Positions 3,318-26,200 of a stretch of 29,323 nucleotides of DNA are shown here, piece after piece. Both the position numbers and the translations under genes were made by a program. Each line of letters begins with the position of its first letter. Within the stretch, counting starts at the first letter, position 1. The stretch is from positions 1 to 29,323 of IMG/VR virus record IMGVR_UViG_3300006917_000103; one strand, 5' to 3'. The DNA comes from a virus. A model generated the notes under the pieces. It was not told where the DNA came from and made no database searches. It saw only the letters and a list, made by a program, of their open reading frames with translations.

Positions 3318-3941
3318 ATGGCTCTAGGTAATAGTACTAATATTATCGTTGGTGCAGCCCAGGTTTTTGTTCATGACGGACCATTAGCCTTGGGTGGAAA
3401 TCCAACCCCAGTATCTGGCGAAGCATATGTTGCGACACTTGATGACACAGCAGGCTTTGAATCGGTTGGATATACAATGAATGGTTTGGAACTACAGTTC
3501 CAGCCAGACTTTGGTGAGGTTGCTGTTGATCAGATCCTTGACGTTGCTAAACTTTTTAAGCAAGGCATGCAAGTAAATCTAAACACAACATTTGCTGAAG
3601 CCACATTGGAAAATCTTCTTATTGCTGTTGCTGGTGGTCCTGGAGACCTTACTGGTGACAAGGGTACATCAAATGGCCAGGTCTTTAATATTAAATCAGG
3701 TAATCTTGGCGAATGCCCAGTAGAACGTGGTTTAGTAGCAGTAGGTCCTGGAACAGGTGATTGCGAAGAAGGTTCCAACAAGGAAAGAATCTATGTTGCA
3801 TATCGTGCACTCTCAATTGAGAATGTAACTGTGTCTGCAAAGCGTGATGAGGCTACAATGTTTGAAGTTTCATTCCGTTTGCTACCAGAAGATTCAACAG
3901 GTTCATACGGTAAGATCATTGATCGCACTGTAACTCCATAA
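3318..3941 (+). CDS. Major tail tube protein
   Basis: A 207-residue protein in the tail tube position, just before the chaperones and the tape measure. It starts MALGNSTNIIVGAAQVFV and continues with alternating strands and Gly-rich turns, as expected for the tube fold whose hexameric rings stack to form the tail. The end (TMFEVSFRLLPEDS...IIDRTVTP) is typical of actinobacteriophage tail tubes. AGAGGTGA lies ahead of the ATG. Its codons differ from most neighbours: Arg is mainly CGT/CGC, Leu is CTT/TTG rather than TTA, and C-ending codons are frequent. That pattern marks a very highly expressed gene. A strong terminator follows 21 bases after the stop. Confidence 0.85.
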   Translation: MALGNSTNIIVGAAQVFVHDGPLALGGNPTPVSGEAYVATLDDTAGFESVGYTMNGLELQFQPDFGEVAVDQILDVAKLFKQGMQVNLNTTFAEATLENLLIAVAGGPGDLTGDKGTSNGQVFNIKSGNLGECPVERGLVAVGPGTGDCEEGSNKERIYVAYRALSIENVTVSAKRDEATMFEVSFRLLPEDSTGSYGKIIDRTVTP

Positions 3942-3961: not shown

Positions 3962-3998
3962 AGCCCAGTCATATTTGAAAAGGCTGGGCTTTTCTGTT
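3962..3998 (+). terminator. Intrinsic terminator after the tail tube gene
   Basis: AGCCCAG (3962-3968) pairs perfectly with CTGGGCT (3984-3990). It can be extended inward by U-G (3969/3983) and C-G (3970/3982). The loop is about 11 bases and TTTCTGTTT follows. As with the capsid gene, the terminator is followed immediately by a TGNTATAAT promoter. Confidence 0.82.
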
Positions 3999-4007
3999 TG
4001 CTATAAT
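3999..4007 (+). promoter_or_regulatory. Extended -10 promoter TGCTATAAT, leaderless
   Basis: TG at 3999-4000, one spacer base, then perfect TATAAT at 4002-4007. Seven bases beyond the last T is 4014, which is the A of the start codon of the next gene. Transcription is therefore predicted to begin at the start codon itself, giving a leaderless mRNA. No ribosome binding site is present between promoter and ATG, which agrees with this. No -35 element is visible, because that position lies in the terminator. Confidence 0.75.
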
Positions 4008-4013
4008 AAATAC

Positions 4014-4700
4014 ATGGCTACCGAAATATATAATAGTGGATATGTTGAATTAATTGATGGAACAGAAATATATGTTACCCCACTAAAAATAAAATATCTT
4101 CGTTTATTTATGGAACAGTTTGAAAATGTTAAAAAGTCAAAAAGTGATGAAGAGGCTATTTCAGAATTAGCAAAATGTGCATTAATCTGCATGAAACAAT
4201 ATTATCCAAATATTAAAACAATAGAAGAACTTGAAGATAATATAGATATTAAAACAATTTATAAAGTATTAGATATTGCTGCGGGAATTAAAATAGATAA
4301 AGAATCCCAAGAAAAAATAAAAGATCAAGCAACAGAAAGTCCAGGCGCTTCATGGGATAAACTCGATTTGGTCAAACTTGAGGCAGAGGTATTTTTGCTC
4401 GGTATTTGGAAAGACTATGAAGAACTAGAAACATCAATGTCTATGCCAGAATTAACAGAAACCTTAAATATAAAAAGAGAGTTAGATTATTCAGATAAAA
4501 AGTTTTATGCTGCAATTCAAGGTGTAGATTTAGATAAAAATACTAAAAAGTCAAATGCTTGGGAAGATATGAAAGCAAGAGTATTTAGTAAAGGTAAGGC
4601 ATCAGACTCAAGAGATGTTCTTTCACTTCAAGGAATAAATGCTAGTCAGGCTGGATTTGGTATTGGCATGGGGCTAGAGTATGAAGAAATAAAAGATTAA
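4014..4700 (+). CDS. Tail assembly chaperone, long form (GT-like)
   Basis: A 228-residue protein. Residues 1-105 are clearly paralogous to the gene at 4750: both start MAT, share LIDGT-x-I-x-V-x-PLKI, then LR-x-FM, a later M-x-QY-x-P, and YK followed by A-x-GIK. The remaining 120 residues (from about ASWDKLDLVKLEAEV to LEYEEIKD) are absent from the paralog. They have the helical character and Trp (SAWEDMKARVFSKG) of the T part of phage GT chaperones. Such proteins coat the tape measure and recruit tail tube subunits. The ATG at 4014 is chosen over an in-frame TTG at 3975 because the latter lies in the terminator loop and because the paralog starts the same way. Leu is mostly TTA and Lys AAA, implying lower expression than the short copy. 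Confidence 0.8.
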   Translation: MATEIYNSGYVELIDGTEIYVTPLKIKYLRLFMEQFENVKKSKSDEEAISELAKCALICMKQYYPNIKTIEELEDNIDIKTIYKVLDIAAGIKIDKESQEKIKDQATESPGASWDKLDLVKLEAEVFLLGIWKDYEELETSMSMPELTETLNIKRELDYSDKKFYAAIQGVDLDKNTKKSNAWEDMKARVFSKGKASDSRDVLSLQGINASQAGFGIGMGLEYEEIKD

Positions 4701-4715
4701 AAATAAAAGCCATTG

Positions 4716-4724
4716 TGGTATAAT
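4716..4724 (+). promoter_or_regulatory. Extended -10 promoter TGGTATAAT
   Basis: TG at 4716-4717, one spacer base, then TATAAT at 4719-4724, in the 49-base gap between the two chaperone genes. The predicted start near 4731 gives a leader of about 19 bases that includes a strong AAGGAGG (4739-4745) ahead of the ATG at 4750. Confidence 0.72.
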
Positions 4725-4749
4725 TAATTCAACCTTATAAGGAGGAATA

Positions 4750-5076
4750 ATGGCTACAACTGTGCATGAAGCAAAAGAAATCGTTCTTATTGACGGCACA
4801 AAGATAAAAGTAAGACCACTGAAGATATCTCTTCTTCGTCCATTTATGAAGAAGTTCGAAGGTATTGCAGCAGTGGCAGAAGATAATGAAAAATCAATGA
4901 CTCTTCTTATGGAATGTGTAGCAATTGCTATGCAGCAATATAAGCCAGAGTTGTCAGAAGATCTTGCTGCTCTTGAAGAGAATTTGGATCTTCCTACAGT
5001 TTACAAAATCGTTGAAGAGGCTTCAGGAATTAAGTTAACAGAAGCCAGTCTTATCGGCGGACTTGCAAACGTATAA
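4750..5076 (+). CDS. Tail assembly chaperone, short form (G-like)
   Basis: A 108-residue protein matching only the N-terminal domain of the preceding long chaperone, ending just after the shared A-x-GIK block. It corresponds to the G form, the abundant partner of GT in tail assembly. It has its own TGNTATAAT promoter, a near-perfect AAGGAGG site, and codons of the highly expressed type (CTT for Leu, AAG for Lys, GTT/GCT). All three differ from the long copy. No reading frame follows that could be joined by a frameshift: only 29 bases separate it from the tape measure gene. Family assignment rests on position immediately before the tape measure and on the paralogy. Confidence 0.8.
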   Translation: MATTVHEAKEIVLIDGTKIKVRPLKISLLRPFMKKFEGIAAVAEDNEKSMTLLMECVAIAMQQYKPELSEDLAALEENLDLPTVYKIVEEASGIKLTEASLIGGLANV

Positions 5077-5105
5077 AAAATAAATATAAATAGAGGTGTA
5101 ATGGA

Positions 5106-11100: not shown

Positions 11101-13094
11101 ATCAAATTAAAACTGATTTACAAGGTGATATTGATGCAGATAAGCAGACTGCTGCAGCAAGAGCAAATCTAGCAAAAGCAGCAAAAGCAAACAATTGGAG
11201 TTGGCTTGAAGCAGATGCAATCCTTAGTGACGATACATTAAGAGAGGCAATGGCAAATTGGGATAAACTTACAAAAGAACAAGCAGCAGTATTTAAAGAA
11301 CGATTGCAACAAGTACTTAATTCTATAGAATTTAAAGAGTCAATATTTAATAAGGGTTTTGAAAAGGCTATGGAAAAGTTTTCTGTTATGGAAACTAAGA
11401 TTGAACTTGATTTTCAATTTACCACATTAAAAGATCAAGATATTATTGAAAAGGCTCAAGATAAAATTGCTGGAATTAATTATCAAATAGATGATTGGGA
11501 AGCAAGTCTCAAGGGTATAGAAGAACAAGAGCAAAAAATTAATGATAAGTATGACCTTAAATATAAAGCATTAGATGAAATAAGAAGTTTAAATGATAAA
11601 ATATCTAAACAACAAAAGGGACAACTTACACTTGCTGATGCATTGTCACAAGGAGATATTGCTGCTGCTGCAAGAGCAGCCCAAGACATAAGATCTCAAC
11701 AAGCAACAGATGCAATAGATAATCAGCAAAAATTATTAGATGCTGCTAAAGAAAATGAATTAGCAAATATAAGAAATGAAAAAGGTTATACTCGTGCACA
11801 AATAGAAGATCAGATTAAAAATTTACGTGATCAAATATTTAAGATAGAGGAACAGGAACTTGAACCAGCACAAGAAAGAGTGCGTATCGAAGAAGCAAAA
11901 AAGAGAGAACTAATTCAATCACTTACAGTTCTTGGAAAAAGTAAATTAGAATGGGAAGCAATAAAAAATAGAATAGATATTGCAAGAACATCTAGTGCAG
12001 AATATATGCAAGCAATTGCTGCAGCACTTACAGTTGTTGAAGATATTGTTAATTATTGGAATTCGCTTGATGGAAAAATAATTACAACTACACATAAAAT
12101 TATAACTATATATGAAAACGGAGGAACACCAGGACCAGGACCAGGACCAGGACCAGGACCAGGACCAGAGCCATGCCCTCCTGGACATATCATGAATGAT
12201 GCTGGAAACTGTGTTCCAGTTGGCGGTGTAAGCGAATGTGGCCCAGGAATGGTTAAGGCAGATGACGGCAGATGTGTTCCTGCTGGATCATTTAATACAG
12301 ATAATAGTGATGGTACAAGCAAAACTGATGGATCTGGAAATAACAATGATTCTACTGGTGATTCAAATACAGATTATAGCGGAAGGTTAATTAATGGTTT
12401 TACTCCATATTTAATTGAAGCAAAAGAAGAATATGACAAAATTGTTGCAAAGTCATTAGCACCTGGAGCAACGCCAAGTGATTTCGGTCACGATCTAGCG
12501 TCTGCTGATCAAAAAGTTATAAATGCTTTAAACTTAGTTGACGCAAAAAATGAGTATAATAAAAAAGTAACTCAAAGTTTAACTAAGGGTGCTACACCAA
12601 GCGATTTTGGTGCAGGACTAGCAGCATCAGATATGAAGGTTATTAATGCTGCGAATAAAGTTATAGCATCATCTACTTCAGCAAATGCTGCTAAGGCTGC
12701 TGCTGATGCTGCTGCAAAGGCTAAGGCTGCTGCAGATATTAAAAAGTTTGGTGGAAATGCAATTGCAGCATCTCAATTTGCTAACTGGCCTAGCGGTAAA
12801 TCTTCTGGAGGGCTTATTAAAAGATTTGCTGTTGGTGGACCAGTTATAGGAACTGATGTTGTTCCTTCAATGTTAACACCTGGAGAATTTATCATGAGCA
12901 AATATGCAGTAAATACGTATGGCGTAGATAAAATGAGAGCAATTAACAATGGCGATGTATCAGATGCTTCGGTGTATAATTATAGTATTGCTGTTAATGT
13001 AAAATCAGATGCAAATCCTGATGAAATTGCAAGGGCGGTAATGGGTCAAATTCGTCAAGTAGATTCAAAGAGATTAAGGAGCAGAGCAGTATAA
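5106..13094 (+). CDS. Tape measure protein
   Basis: A 2662-residue protein that sets tail length and is held inside the tail tube. Residues about 190-460 form the TP901-type tape measure core, with recognisable blocks such as LGGDVEDLAFFLTAMKEGG and GANALKSGLASLINPT. Hydrophobic segments lie at about 541-580, 1169-1205 and 1401-1441; the last is a Gly/Ala zipper (GLGAAIGTAILPGIGTIVG). A long helical, Lys/Glu/Gln-rich stretch at about 2139-2280 is probably coiled coil. A TDxVPxMLTPGE motif occurs twice (T678-E689 and from T2583). Residues 2342-2435 hold a Pro-Gly repeat, four Cys and a Ser/Asn/Asp/Gly linker, followed by two 41-residue repeats. I see no peptidase or lysozyme motif. AGAGGTG (5092-5098) supports the ATG at 5106. 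Most Leu codons are TTA and Arg AGA. Confidence 0.95.
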   Translation: MADVQSNIHVNIDTSEALASIKLLQKQISAFHTSMAKSGAAASAVSANMQQNLINSLNASGKWSASMRTVKTTTESFTNALEKNKLSMRDYYRYSMGATKTFGRLFSSEFDTISKVARERVKDLQTQYIKLGRDANGAMRAIAIRPLALDMQNYGTQTAIASQRQALLNQLMKQGATNMLNFGKNTQWAGRQLMVGFTIPLTYLGTAAAKTFMQLEEQAIRFKRVYGEMFTTGAETEKMLSDIQILAKQFTKYGVAVEKTMEMAATAAAQGKMGAELLAQVNEATRLSVLGGVEQEQSLETTISLTNAFGLSAEKLAQKINFLNAVENQTVVSIEDLTVAIPKAGPVVKQLGGDVEDLAFFLTAMKEGGINASEGANALKSGLASLINPTDKASQMLADMGINLKGIVETNKGNVKQVVLDFAAALNTLDPLNRAKAIEQLFGKFQFARLSTLFQNVIQQGNQASRVLKLTQATTEELAILSERELSKVEESTTYKFKKTIEDLKVSLAPVGEQFLKAITPIAEFIGKVLEKFNNLGDGTKKFVVILTTLLGGIGPILLMTFGLLANGLANIIKLFVSMKSIFNRAGQSSNTLGEQTQYLTSEQAEAASVAASLNQIHTRLQQTFTSETSALNALISAYQRAIAAQRGFSGPIIGGGKRAKFASGTTKVRPFYFARGTDTVPAMLTPGEAVIPAGPAQDPRNKPAIKHMIAGGTMEYLSEGVGSVVEKKLRRIGSGSEGRVGKSGTTVPIPYKLNVSNSGGAVPFTSINPASMVNLTSIYAKDIAKAAKISVTSINKEIKEWQIANKKAIDVATEAVQKGIPAEKAFGNLMEKFNADMKRAGGPVSKFADAARKMAPMLQQDLIQAQNEARRLGLNVKNAADATALAGKLPNNIVAQSITKPGNFQGLSKARGAGISMFGGAAGLPQYGIPRFMLTPGIAPASPAYLAGTSQEHFGQTKQEQAARAANREQRIKLRVGTNLGKQTAQHLVNGLEQGLRAELQSASPSKRMQKIGQDAGRGLIIGAQEYVDDARVAGQQIGVAATQGVMSQAQMAAASRASLYGGGPIDASQKSLRRQLQKQARIAELAQKKPLSQSTIMPMVAGAGTAKPTVAGKFSNWRQNKIEQQRLAKAERGSRPGVSMGGVGMGLSMAAMAGSMVPGKVGDVSQKLMMPLMMLTMIGPMLQTPIGALMVSIGAMAAGIIKLRMEFDKAQDSSIKLRESLSASKDSMRNLAKFSGNVTAGEIMDRRRDQKFGLVGAKPGKTTFGEAYVSSKEGKTVMDATVESLKTRGVKATGGDLTNQLVSSVLAGALSAEQAKSIALNIGQKTGNYGLGFSVTAQINQLIGPNGENLEKDPLEIRMKLIEQTEGQNKQLFQQMQEKGGRGGFLNMGALNPNVAMGGMTAAGAGLGAAIGTAILPGIGTIVGTGLGAIAGAVGGYFSQRGANERNGKLSGAVVASQRAQMEQQKEMLDSLDLYYQKKIKELEIEGKITEAKALQKKYDEDRNKLVEKGAQLNKDIMTNYGATKGNVRSAMDTGIDKLLTQRYKNSDEIQYLDAAKTLLSESQLTKEQQYLIKVKMSTGELTPSQQMFLFSNFGNDKNVQQQYMDIITRFSATTADDATRVMGMFSNPDGTPNKELQTKFLASVATKKDDKEASKYIDFFAEVANTNGVFDMTAILNFYMKNPEMQAKTQEIIDNIDKNKGKLTLDVMTNFLPENVMGSIDKAYFEKLSQDERITYLKEIATIVNVPDPVIQADPEFIKWQKEGALYNGVSYSGKSIGEQIAAYRQFQPWKVTQESIAQASATPAKTTSGGGKVDSSPLDDIVKKLRDVRKNQIKVTEGWSASMKTLDQLFGGKKRLEMFSGIEQDLAKLGAKGNFIELIVGMDPKEYEKRKNQLFKFDNNNNIIGLKKDAKTIQEALNAVVAGDYASQMIQLKQEIADQSAAYDILTKAGLSYADTQELIADKAFAAMIASEGNTKAAQKLIKLLKEAKTLSKGNQIKTDLQGDIDADKQTAAARANLAKAAKANNWSWLEADAILSDDTLREAMANWDKLTKEQAAVFKERLQQVLNSIEFKESIFNKGFEKAMEKFSVMETKIELDFQFTTLKDQDIIEKAQDKIAGINYQIDDWEASLKGIEEQEQKINDKYDLKYKALDEIRSLNDKISKQQKGQLTLADALSQGDIAAAARAAQDIRSQQATDAIDNQQKLLDAAKENELANIRNEKGYTRAQIEDQIKNLRDQIFKIEEQELEPAQERVRIEEAKKRELIQSLTVLGKSKLEWEAIKNRIDIARTSSAEYMQAIAAALTVVEDIVNYWNSLDGKIITTTHKIITIYENGGTPGPGPGPGPGPGPEPCPPGHIMNDAGNCVPVGGVSECGPGMVKADDGRCVPAGSFNTDNSDGTSKTDGSGNNNDSTGDSNTDYSGRLINGFTPYLIEAKEEYDKIVAKSLAPGATPSDFGHDLASADQKVINALNLVDAKNEYNKKVTQSLTKGATPSDFGAGLAASDMKVINAANKVIASSTSANAAKAAADAAAKAKAAADIKKFGGNAIAASQFANWPSGKSSGGLIKRFAVGGPVIGTDVVPSMLTPGEFIMSKYAVNTYGVDKMRAINNGDVSDASVYNYSIAVNVKSDANPDEIARAVMGQIRQVDSKRLRSRAV
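12129..12167 (+). repeat. Perfect hexanucleotide repeat (CCAGGA) coding Pro-Gly
   Basis: Six and a half perfect copies of CCAGGA inside the tape measure gene, encoding alternating Pro-Gly from residue 2342. Because the unit is six bases, gain or loss of units by slippage would change the protein by two residues without shifting the frame. The exact nucleotide identity of all copies suggests recent expansion or ongoing slippage. Confidence 0.9.
12420..12665 (+). repeat. Tandem 41-residue protein repeat in the tape measure
   Basis: Two adjacent 41-codon units, 12420-12542 and 12543-12665 (residues 2439-2479 and 2480-2520). Both read AK-x-EY-x-K at the start, share GATPSDFG in the middle and KVINA near the end. 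The DNA has diverged more than the protein, so this is an older duplication than the CCAGGA repeat. Confidence 0.85.
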
Positions 13095-24450: not shown

Positions 24451-24746
24451 AAAATAAAAATCATATGGAATGGTTACAGGCTTTAAAAACCATGGGTCAT
24501 AAAGAATATTGGACAAAGGCAAACATTGTAGAATTTTTTGCTTTTGTTGCCAAAGCAATAATTATTTTACCAGGATTACTGTTTGATGTGAGTGTATGGT
24601 GGTTTTATATATTTGCATTAGTATCAAGTATTGGACTTATTTGGTCATCTACTGTTAAAACAATACCTACCCTAATTTGGTTTAATATTTTATGGTCAAT
24701 CCTTGCAATACTTTATATTGCAAAATATTTTGGAGTTATTCTTTGA
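24447..24746 (+). CDS. Small membrane protein, three predicted membrane segments
   Basis: A 99-residue protein with a polar N-terminal 28 residues and three hydrophobic segments, at about 30-46 (FFAFVAKAIIILPGLLF), 49-68 (VWWFYIFALVSSIGLIWSS) and 74-98 (LIWFNILWSILAILYIAKYF). It has no signal peptide and no holin-specific feature that I can see, although a small multi-span membrane protein could be a holin. It overlaps the primase stop (ATGA) and its TGA overlaps the TTG start of the halogenase. The three are therefore translationally coupled, which ties it to the halogenase rather than to any lysis gene. Function unknown. Confidence 0.75.
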   Translation: MKNKNHMEWLQALKTMGHKEYWTKANIVEFFAFVAKAIIILPGLLFDVSVWWFYIFALVSSIGLIWSSTVKTIPTLIWFNILWSILAILYIAKYFGVIL

Positions 24747-26200
24747 AAGTAGTTGTTGCTGGAGGCGGTACTGCTGGATATCTTGCTGCTTTAACAATTA
24801 ATAAAAGATTGCCACATGCAGACATAACGGTAATAGATAGTTCTAGAGTTGGGGTGCTGGGTGCTGGAGAAGGAACCACAACTAACTTTGCTTATATTTT
24901 TGATGAATTAGAATTACCAATAGATAAATTTATAGAGCATACTGGGTCAACATTAAAGAACGGTATAAAATTTATAGGATGGTCTAAAAGACAAGATTCA
25001 TACTTTCATCCATTAATAAATTATGTATCTGATAATGATCTTACAAAAGAAGAACAATTAGAATTATTTAAGTTAGCATCTATAGAAGTTATGTCAAATA
25101 ATAATAATTTAGATGATATTAATAAAGGACTTAGTGCTACAAATAAAAATAAACTATCTTGGCCATATATTGGATGGCATTTAGATGCTATTAAATTAGC
25201 AGAATTTTTTAAAGAAGAGTCAACAAAAAGAGGAATAAAAATAATAGATGATAAAATTAAACATGTTGGAGAGTTTAATGGAAATATTACTGTTATACAC
25301 TGTGAGTCTGGTTCTTATCAATGTGATTTTTTAATAGATGCTACTGGATTTAAAAATTTATTTGTTGGGCATCACTTACAATCTGAATGGGTTGATACAT
25401 CAGAAAGTTTACCTTGTACTAAAGCATTAGCATTCTTTTTACCACAAGATGAAAATTATTCTATGTGTACAGAAATTATAGCAATGAAATATGGTTGGGT
25501 ATGGAAGACACCGTTAAAACATAGATATGGATGCGGATATGTATACGATCCAAAATATACATCTAAGGAAAATGCATTAGAAGAAATTTATACTCTTTTT
25601 AAAAAAGAAGATGTCAAAGTAGTTAATCATTTTGATTTTAAACCAGGATATTATAAAACACCATGGGTTAAAAATTGTTTATCTGTTGGGCTTGCTGCGG
25701 GATTCTTTGAACCATTACATGCTACGTCTATTATGCTTACTATATACATGTTAAGATTGTTTACGTCTCCAGAATTTTTAACTGAATATACATTAAATAA
25801 TAATGAAACAGTTATTGAAAAATATAATGATTTGATATTACAAAAAAATAAAGAACTATTAGGATTTATTTATATACATTATTTAACTGACAAAGATAAT
25901 TCTGAATTTTGGAAAAACTTTAAAATAGAAAATAAAATGCCAGAATATGCAGAAAATGTATTAAGAGAATTAGATAAAGATTATATATCACAATACGTTA
26001 TTTCAAATACTAATAAAACATTTGGATATCAGTCATGGATGACTACATATGTAAATACTGGACAGTTTAATAGATCTAATTTGTATTCAGATTTGCAAAC
26101 TAAGCAAGCATATGATAAACTGTATAATGAAGCAAAAAACTTTGAAGGAATAGATGTTAAAGAGTATTTATCTAAGCACTTGACAGATGTTACCTTTTAA
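24743..26200 (+). CDS. Flavin-dependent tryptophan halogenase family protein
   Basis: A 485-residue FAD-dependent enzyme of the tryptophan halogenase (PrnA-like) family. These enzymes use FADH2, O2 and a halide to form HOCl or HOBr that chlorinates or brominates a substrate. GGGTAG (7-12) binds FAD; GAGEGTTTN (40-48) matches the GE-x-T flavin loop; K72 in STLKNGIKF is the catalytic Lys equivalent of PrnA K79; GWVWKTP (W252, W254) is the WxWxIP hallmark; GLAAGFFEPLHATSI is the second flavin segment, where family members normally have EPLE[ST]. The start is TTG at 24743, with GGAG at 24732-24735, because the FAD motif must be near the N-terminus. Codons are more TTA- and AAA-rich than neighbours. 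The substrate is unknown and no flavin reductase is present in the window. Confidence 0.88.
   Translation: MKVVVAGGGTAGYLAALTINKRLPHADITVIDSSRVGVLGAGEGTTTNFAYIFDELELPIDKFIEHTGSTLKNGIKFIGWSKRQDSYFHPLINYVSDNDLTKEEQLELFKLASIEVMSNNNNLDDINKGLSATNKNKLSWPYIGWHLDAIKLAEFFKEESTKRGIKIIDDKIKHVGEFNGNITVIHCESGSYQCDFLIDATGFKNLFVGHHLQSEWVDTSESLPCTKALAFFLPQDENYSMCTEIIAMKYGWVWKTPLKHRYGCGYVYDPKYTSKENALEEIYTLFKKEDVKVVNHFDFKPGYYKTPWVKNCLSVGLAAGFFEPLHATSIMLTIYMLRLFTSPEFLTEYTLNNNETVIEKYNDLILQKNKELLGFIYIHYLTDKDNSEFWKNFKIENKMPEYAENVLRELDKDYISQYVISNTNKTFGYQSWMTTYVNTGQFNRSNLYSDLQTKQAYDKLYNEAKNFEGIDVKEYLSKHLTDVTF

Follow-up and report, generated by a model that had tools for sequence, protein, structure and literature searches.

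How does a phage obtain the two forms of its tail assembly chaperone where the frameshift that would link them is missing? Frameshifting in the tail chaperone gene is among the most widely conserved recoding events of phages, and the usual explanation is that a fixed ratio of the two proteins is needed. In lambda, the G and G-T chaperones reportedly come from one locus through a -1 programmed frameshift. The window analyzed here, a virus record of 29,323 bases taken at full length, has in that place a long gene and a short gene that share an N-terminal domain (N-domain), at 4014-4700 and 4750-5076; no third copy of the domain was found in the record. A first-pass annotation had proposed that a duplication here replaced recoding. 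The comparisons described below make it very probable that the two genes represent the two forms of a chaperone of the lambda G/G-T type, and that duplication with division of labor took the place of the frameshift.

The features of the locus are listed in Table 1. The two genes sit between the tail tube gene and the tape measure gene, which is the chaperone position in annotated relatives as well. The tail tube protein matches PHROG 117, major tail protein (0.016), and the Pfam family Phage_TTP_17 (0.0074), both weakly, and the position of its gene corresponds to that of the "major tail protein" in Coruscant, EGole, and Moab. The first 498 residues of the tape measure protein match PHROG 10030, tape measure (7e-79), and Pfam PhageMin_Tail (4e-26). 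A TTG start for the long gene at 3975, which would extend the protein to 241 residues, was rejected; the added stretch would contain part of the hairpin and the -10 box, and the homologous start, taken by script as the nearest ATG or GTG codon, is ATG (119) or GTG (6) in 125 of 125 two-gene loci. Elsewhere in the window, an extended -10 box TGT-TATAAT, 19 nt from the start codon and accompanied by AGGAGG (195-222), forms an ordinary leader for the gene at 223. Towards the C-terminal end of the tape measure protein (about 12125-12180, place estimated), a GPGPGPGPG repeat leads into a short stretch that contains cysteine. A tryptophan halogenase-like gene (24692-26200; Pfam Trp_halogenase, E 2.7e-88) lies near genes for a phage DnaB-like helicase and a primase.

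Table 1. Features of the chaperone locus and its immediate neighbors, in window coordinates.
Feature	Position	Strand	Remarks
Major tail (tube) protein gene	3318..3941	+	Upstream neighbor; PHROG 2175 ("protein with Ig domain"), 1.2e-35
Terminator-like hairpin GCCCAG/CTGGGC, then TTTT	3963..3993	+	In the gap between tail protein and long genes; read from sequence
Extended -10 element TGC-TATAAT of long gene	3999..4007	+	6 nt from start codon; predicted leaderless transcript
Long tail assembly chaperone (G-T equivalent), 228 aa	4014..4700	+	In-frame fusion of N-domain and T-like extension
Linker from N-domain to T-like domain	4293..4352	+	60 nt, GIK to W codon
Extended -10 element TGG-TATAAT of short gene	4716..4724	+	
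Shine-Dalgarno TAAGGAGG of short gene	4738..4745	+	Read from sequence
Short tail assembly chaperone (G equivalent), 108 aa	4750..5076	+	Open reading frame with N-domain homology
Tail tape measure protein gene, 2662 aa	5106..13094	+	Presumed client of the chaperones

That the two proteins share an N-domain, and that only the first carries an extension fused in frame, had been read from the translations and is borne out by homology searches. In a single BLASTP comparison, 41 of 100 aligned residues are identical and 68 of 100 positive (E 1e-24). PHROG 10504 matches the N-domain of the long protein (6e-21) and the short one (5e-21), while PHROG 10474 matches the long protein only, at residues 131-222, which make up most of the extension. 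Neither PHROG carries a named function; Pfam searches with both proteins returned nothing reaching the cut-off, and neither Pfam nor PHROGs supplied the name tail assembly chaperone for either protein. The name comes through Streptomyces phages, where tblastn matches genes annotated as tail assembly chaperone at E 1e-32 for the long protein and 6e-11 for the short one, with 35-41% identity to the window's N-domain. The extension of the long protein is homologous to the T open reading frame that these phages, and uncultivated frameshift relatives, encode in the -1 frame; the refuting case named in the first-pass annotation, an extension without relation to gpT-type domains, was thus not found.

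Searches of PDB sequences with profiles of the long and short families found nothing related, and no chaperone of known structure. The predicted model of the short protein (mean pLDDT 72.8, near 80 in the core) has a beta hairpin and helices. Foldseek returned no match for it at E <= 0.001, with HK97 gp13 (PDB 2OB9) second at E 2.0. A second-look structural alignment placed 2OB9 in the top row, with Z 4.5 over 87 of 108 residues, but at 10% identity and rmsd 5.8, a weak match that unrelated rows follow closely at 4.2 and 4.0. Weak as it is, it agrees with the role that gene order and annotation would suggest. The long protein was modeled with less certainty (mean pLDDT 67.3, a middling value), and Foldseek found no match for it with E < 1.

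The two-gene arrangement of the window recurs in related phages. IMG/VR relatives were drawn from the best 80 of 408 matches, the best 80 of at least 588, the best 80 of at least 550, and one set of 11. All locus counts below therefore describe samples, made of the best 80 matches per search. In 186 loci, 125 of them distinct in DNA (IMG/VR loci and the window), a short gene comes after a fused long one, a recurrence that rules out chance and, for the pattern as a whole, sequencing error. The N-domain and C-domain lie in different frames in 61 loci, 57 of them distinct, GenBank loci included. Many distinct loci are closely related; clustering at 80% identity leaves 43 long, 22 short, and 16 frameshift G representatives. 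In the Streptomyces phages, which belong to the Stanwilliamsviridae, the N-domain ends in a stop and the homolog of the extension follows in an overlapping -1 frame. The Patelgo record annotates the frameshift product as one joined coding sequence, and the records of the Rhodococcus phages NiceHouse and Francesca carry the same kind of join. A tblastn search with the short protein (E up to 1) found 127 N-domain places in 127 Streptomyces phage records and no second place in any.

Ten other loci were dropped from the counts. Six are cut by contig ends (L105, L010, L029, L071, L079, L254), L117 has its N-domain split between frames near a contig end, and L165-L167 are distant phages of Rhodococcus and Brevibacillus, only partly matched by the profiles. 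In the last of these, Brevibacillus phage Jenst, the gene at the chaperone position (L167, 2824-3297; JENST_33) is weakly similar to the long N-domain and carries the annotation putative DNA polymerase III subunit gamma/tau, which is probably wrong. L149, with a long frame shortened to 153 residues, was retained among the 125; L192 is a cut frameshift locus that lacks the T stop. Among the best 80 loci of the short-protein search, a long frame lies directly upstream in 78, one of them L149, and the remainder are L105 and L117. The only fused genes seen without a short neighbor are those of L010, L029, L079, and L254, all among the cut loci. Across genome contigs, 75 stretches matched the search pattern and none encodes a relative of the short protein; this search thus gave no prophage or host link.

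The frameshift loci show what the two-gene loci lack. A slip heptamer lies near the end of the zero frame, within the overlap, in 57 of 57 distinct frameshift loci: C CCA AAC in 27, C CCA AAT in 14, and C CCG GAA in 16. The first two are canonical -1 heptamers; the third is non-canonical, a near match of the canonical shape. C CCG GAA replaces C CCA AAY in L003, L004, L168-L177, L188-L190, and L196, a group made up of Streptomyces phages and related contigs in which the heptamer is conserved. Among the 250 genes of the two-gene loci, an in-frame CCCAAAY or CCCGGAA occurs once, at codon 228 of the long gene of L256, and no conserved slippery site was found in the long or short genes of the 125 loci. 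In the window itself, the T part and the N-domain share one frame, and a slippery site with an overlapping -1 frame is absent.

The spacing between the two domains records how the frames were joined. The distance from the GxK motif to the W codon equals 2 mod 3 in all 54 of the 57 frameshift loci that were measured; in 27 uncultivated ones it is 35 nt (23), 44 nt (3), or 41 nt (1). In fused genes it is mostly 57 nt (98 of 125), and 60 nt in the window. Compared with 35 nt, the distance has grown by a net 22 or 25 nt, or +1 mod 3. For the fused genes (122 of 125 measured), spacing was counted in whole codons, which makes it divisible by three by construction, so the 2 mod 3 of the frameshift loci is the actual test. 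Judged by this spacing, the frameshift is hard-wired in the fused long genes. A possible trace of the old site is found in the other gene. The tail of some short genes aligns with the slip region of frameshift relatives, as in LTDANALL against LNDPNALA, with CCA-AAY changed; in one example, LQDANALLNTVLANN from a short gene pairs with LNDPNALAAALVGTN from the old slip region, the proline-asparagine codons being altered. From the alignment, the short-gene tail looks like a decayed slip region. For annotation, adjacent chaperone genes of this two-gene kind should not be joined as a frameshift.

Leaders of the long, short, and frameshift G genes were scored by one procedure. In the window, the long gene is preceded by TGCTATAAT, 6 nt from its ATG, while the short gene has TGGTATAAT, 25 nt from its ATG, together with its Shine-Dalgarno sequence. 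The same layout holds across the sample. The -10 box of the long gene ends 6-9 nt from the start in 124 of 124 loci (6 nt in 98), and no long leader has a Shine-Dalgarno match of more than 4 nt; one locus of the 125 was too near a contig end to be scored. With so little room and so short a match, the long gene is predicted to be leaderless, as the first-pass annotation had suspected. For the short gene, its claim of a separate promoter and ribosome-binding site also stands: the -10 box lies 23-37 nt from the start and contains a perfect TATAAT in 125 of 125 loci, and the Shine-Dalgarno match reaches at least 6 nt in 103. Frameshift G genes have a -10 box 22-33 nt from the start in 57 of 57 loci, and a Shine-Dalgarno match of at least 6 nt in 47. 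In spacing and Shine-Dalgarno match, the leader of the short gene is thus that of its frameshift relatives. Under a strict rule, 63 of 123 two-gene loci have a terminator-like hairpin ahead of the long gene, whereas shuffled sequence gives 5 of 123. For the frameshift G gene the figure is 39 of 57 loci, and no hairpin was found between the long and short genes in 125 loci.

Codon adaptation was scored against the tail proteins of other loci. In the window, the values are 0.50 for the N-domain and 0.54 for the C part of the long gene, 0.63 for the short gene, 0.68 for the tail tube gene, 0.58 for the tape measure gene, and 0.50 for the gene before the tail tube gene. Medians across loci are highest for the tail protein (0.712) and the short gene (0.624), followed by the first part of the tape measure gene (0.594), the gene that precedes the tail protein (0.509), the long C part (0.498), and the long N-domain (0.477). 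The short gene exceeds the long N-domain in 111 of 115 loci and the long C part in 113 of 115. The uncultivated frameshift group has G ahead of T (0.679 against 0.587) in 24 of 25 loci. These counts omit 10 of the 125 two-gene loci and 3 of the 28 uncultivated frameshift loci that have no usable tail protein. The codon contrast drawn in the first-pass annotation thus stands as to its direction, short above long, but the long gene is not specially low. At 0.48-0.50 it is close to the 0.51 of the gene before the tail tube gene; its N-domain lacks the codon bias of an abundant protein and sits at the level of an ordinary tail-module gene. Together, leaders and codon adaptation point to an excess of the short form over the long one.

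Trees were built for the N-domain, the C-domain, and the tape measure protein. All are unrooted, with the Streptomyces phages taken as the outgroup for history; a tail tube protein tree was unresolved and was left unused. In the N-domain tree, for which the bootstrap had not settled, the long sequences form one clade (100/99) and the short sequences another (99/99), and the short sequences group with five uncultivated frameshift G representatives (100/97), leaving the long ones on a branch apart. In the C-domain tree, the long and uncultivated T sequences are split from Streptomyces T at 100/100, and within the former group two-gene and uncultivated frameshift rows are unsorted (3 changes). 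In the tape measure tree, 25 two-gene representatives fall in a 100/100 clade that includes a frameshift locus, L197, which also represents L206 and L207; outside it fall the Streptomyces phages and the remaining uncultivated frameshift phages, and a smaller tree agrees. The tape measure proteins of L197, L206, and L207 are 59-60% identical to the nearest two-gene ones.

Several other readings of the locus were considered. One holds that recoding persists at another site in either gene. The A/T-rich long genes do contain 165 canonical heptamers in 125 genes, and at least three loci have a -1 frame that runs on for 368 nt beyond the long stop without closing; but the heptamers are scattered, with 19 of 125 at the commonest position, and a -1 product starting at one reaches at most 62 nt beyond the stop. 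Canonical heptamers are entirely lacking in 104 of the 125 short genes, and past the short stop the -1 and +1 frames close at a median of 14 and 4 nt. In the window these frames close at 5090 and 5080, and so no downstream frame is usable after 5076, just as had been noted from its reading frames. Persisting recoding is barely credible on these data. It is also quite improbable that the long protein has moved to a new role and is no longer a G-T chaperone, leaving the short protein alone to serve assembly. The long N-domain does evolve faster than the short protein (median pairwise identity 0.568 against 0.726), and the long gene is lower in codon adaptation. Its T-like half, however, is conserved like the short protein (0.719 against 0.726), an alignment of 40 diverse long proteins has 40 invariant columns out of 245, and the long frame directly precedes the short gene almost throughout the short-protein sample.

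The remaining readings concern history. The long gene could have come by recombination from a lineage with a fused G-T, arriving beside a resident G that lost its T. The separate long branch of the long N-domains would accord with such an origin, as would the L197-type loci, which suggest that chaperone and tape measure modules may differ in history. Yet the long C-domain is near uncultivated frameshift T rather than Streptomyces T, faster change in the long N-domain would by itself lengthen the branch, an AU test does not reject long and short as one clade (p 0.247), and fused genes without a short neighbor occur only at cut contig ends; we consider recombination unlikely. A two-gene state that is the older one, with the single frameshift gene derived from it in relatives, might explain why L197-type frameshift loci sit inside the two-gene clade of the unrooted tape measure tree, but it is very improbable. 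The clearly read outgroups in the sample, namely the Streptomyces phages and two Rhodococcus records (Brevibacillus L167 aside), use the frameshift; the short tail resembles a decayed slip region; and no Streptomyces phage record has two N-domain places. Duplication in place of recoding, the reading favored here and in the first-pass annotation, fits both the trees and the apparent slip-site remnant. Because L197, L206, and L207 combine the frameshift form with a tape measure protein of the two-gene clade, a single clean replacement requires a module exchange or a second event. With the Streptomyces outgroup, the simplest history is one replacement of the frameshift by two genes, followed by exchange of the chaperone module in the L197 group. 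There may instead have been a second origin of the switch, and for these three loci a retained older state is possible as well as module exchange.

A duplication scheme would run as follows. The ancestor would have had one gene that gave both forms through a -1 slip at C CCA AAY, and the N-domain gene would then have been duplicated. The upstream copy would have kept the T part, with a net length change of +1 mod 3 between N-domain and T fusing the frames permanently, and would have lost its Shine-Dalgarno leader. The downstream copy would have kept the promoter and Shine-Dalgarno leader and lost T and the slip site. A scarce long form could then come from the predicted leaderless transcript, often behind a terminator, and a promoter of its own with a strong ribosome-binding site would supply the short form in abundance, so that the excess of short over long would be set at initiation and not by recoding. 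By analogy with lambda, many copies of the short form would coat the tape measure protein, and a few of the long form would recruit the tail tube protein.

If this is true, the ratio of G to G-T is carried by transcription and translation initiation, in a setting directly comparable with recoding in relatives. A frameshift dismantled in some phages while relatives still have it would mean that the need for the ratio is separable from the need for recoding, and provides matched pairs for experiments. The locus would also be a case in which duplication gave each product of a recoded gene a gene of its own.

The two-gene principle itself is not new. The PRFect authors (PMC10885494) cite Vladimirov, Gautam, and Davidson (Virology 2022) for some T4-like phages that have one short and one fused long gene. 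Among the literature matches listed, with most subscription papers beyond reach, we found no earlier report of the two-gene form in the phages described here. As far as was searched, the novelty lies in the phage group, in the frameshift state that survives in its relatives, in the decay of the slip site, and in how leaders and codons differ between the two genes across the loci sampled. It is probable that in this one group, independently of the T4-like case, a -1 frameshift was replaced by duplication into a leaderless, hard-wired copy, no longer with expression-type codons, and a slip-less copy with a strong leader.

Lambda, HK97, the closest relatives, and the T4-like phages can each be set beside the window. 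According to a lambda account (PMC5009743), G and G-T occur at a ratio of 30:1, with roles for G and T in binding the tape measure protein and the tail tube. The likeness to lambda is that a short and a long form share an N-domain, that the locus lies just before the tape measure gene, and that the long form adds a T-like part. The differences are that the window has two genes, without a slip site and with their own promoter-like elements and leaders; the two are likened by layout. HK97 gp13 is compared with the short protein through the weak structural match given above, which does not prove a shared fold. Closest are the Streptomyces phages of the Stanwilliamsviridae (Coruscant, EGole, Moab, Patelgo) and the uncultivated frameshift phages (among L191-L248), which have a homologous N-domain and T part, the same gene order, and a -10 box and Shine-Dalgarno leader like that of the window's short gene; they differ in having a single gene that slips at C CCA AAY or C CCG GAA. 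The T4-like phages, as described in PMC10885494, have a short gene and a fused long gene and no frameshift, and the window has all three of these features. They belong to another phage group and are likened by description. In the phages described here, the frameshift state survives in relatives, which makes the change traceable.
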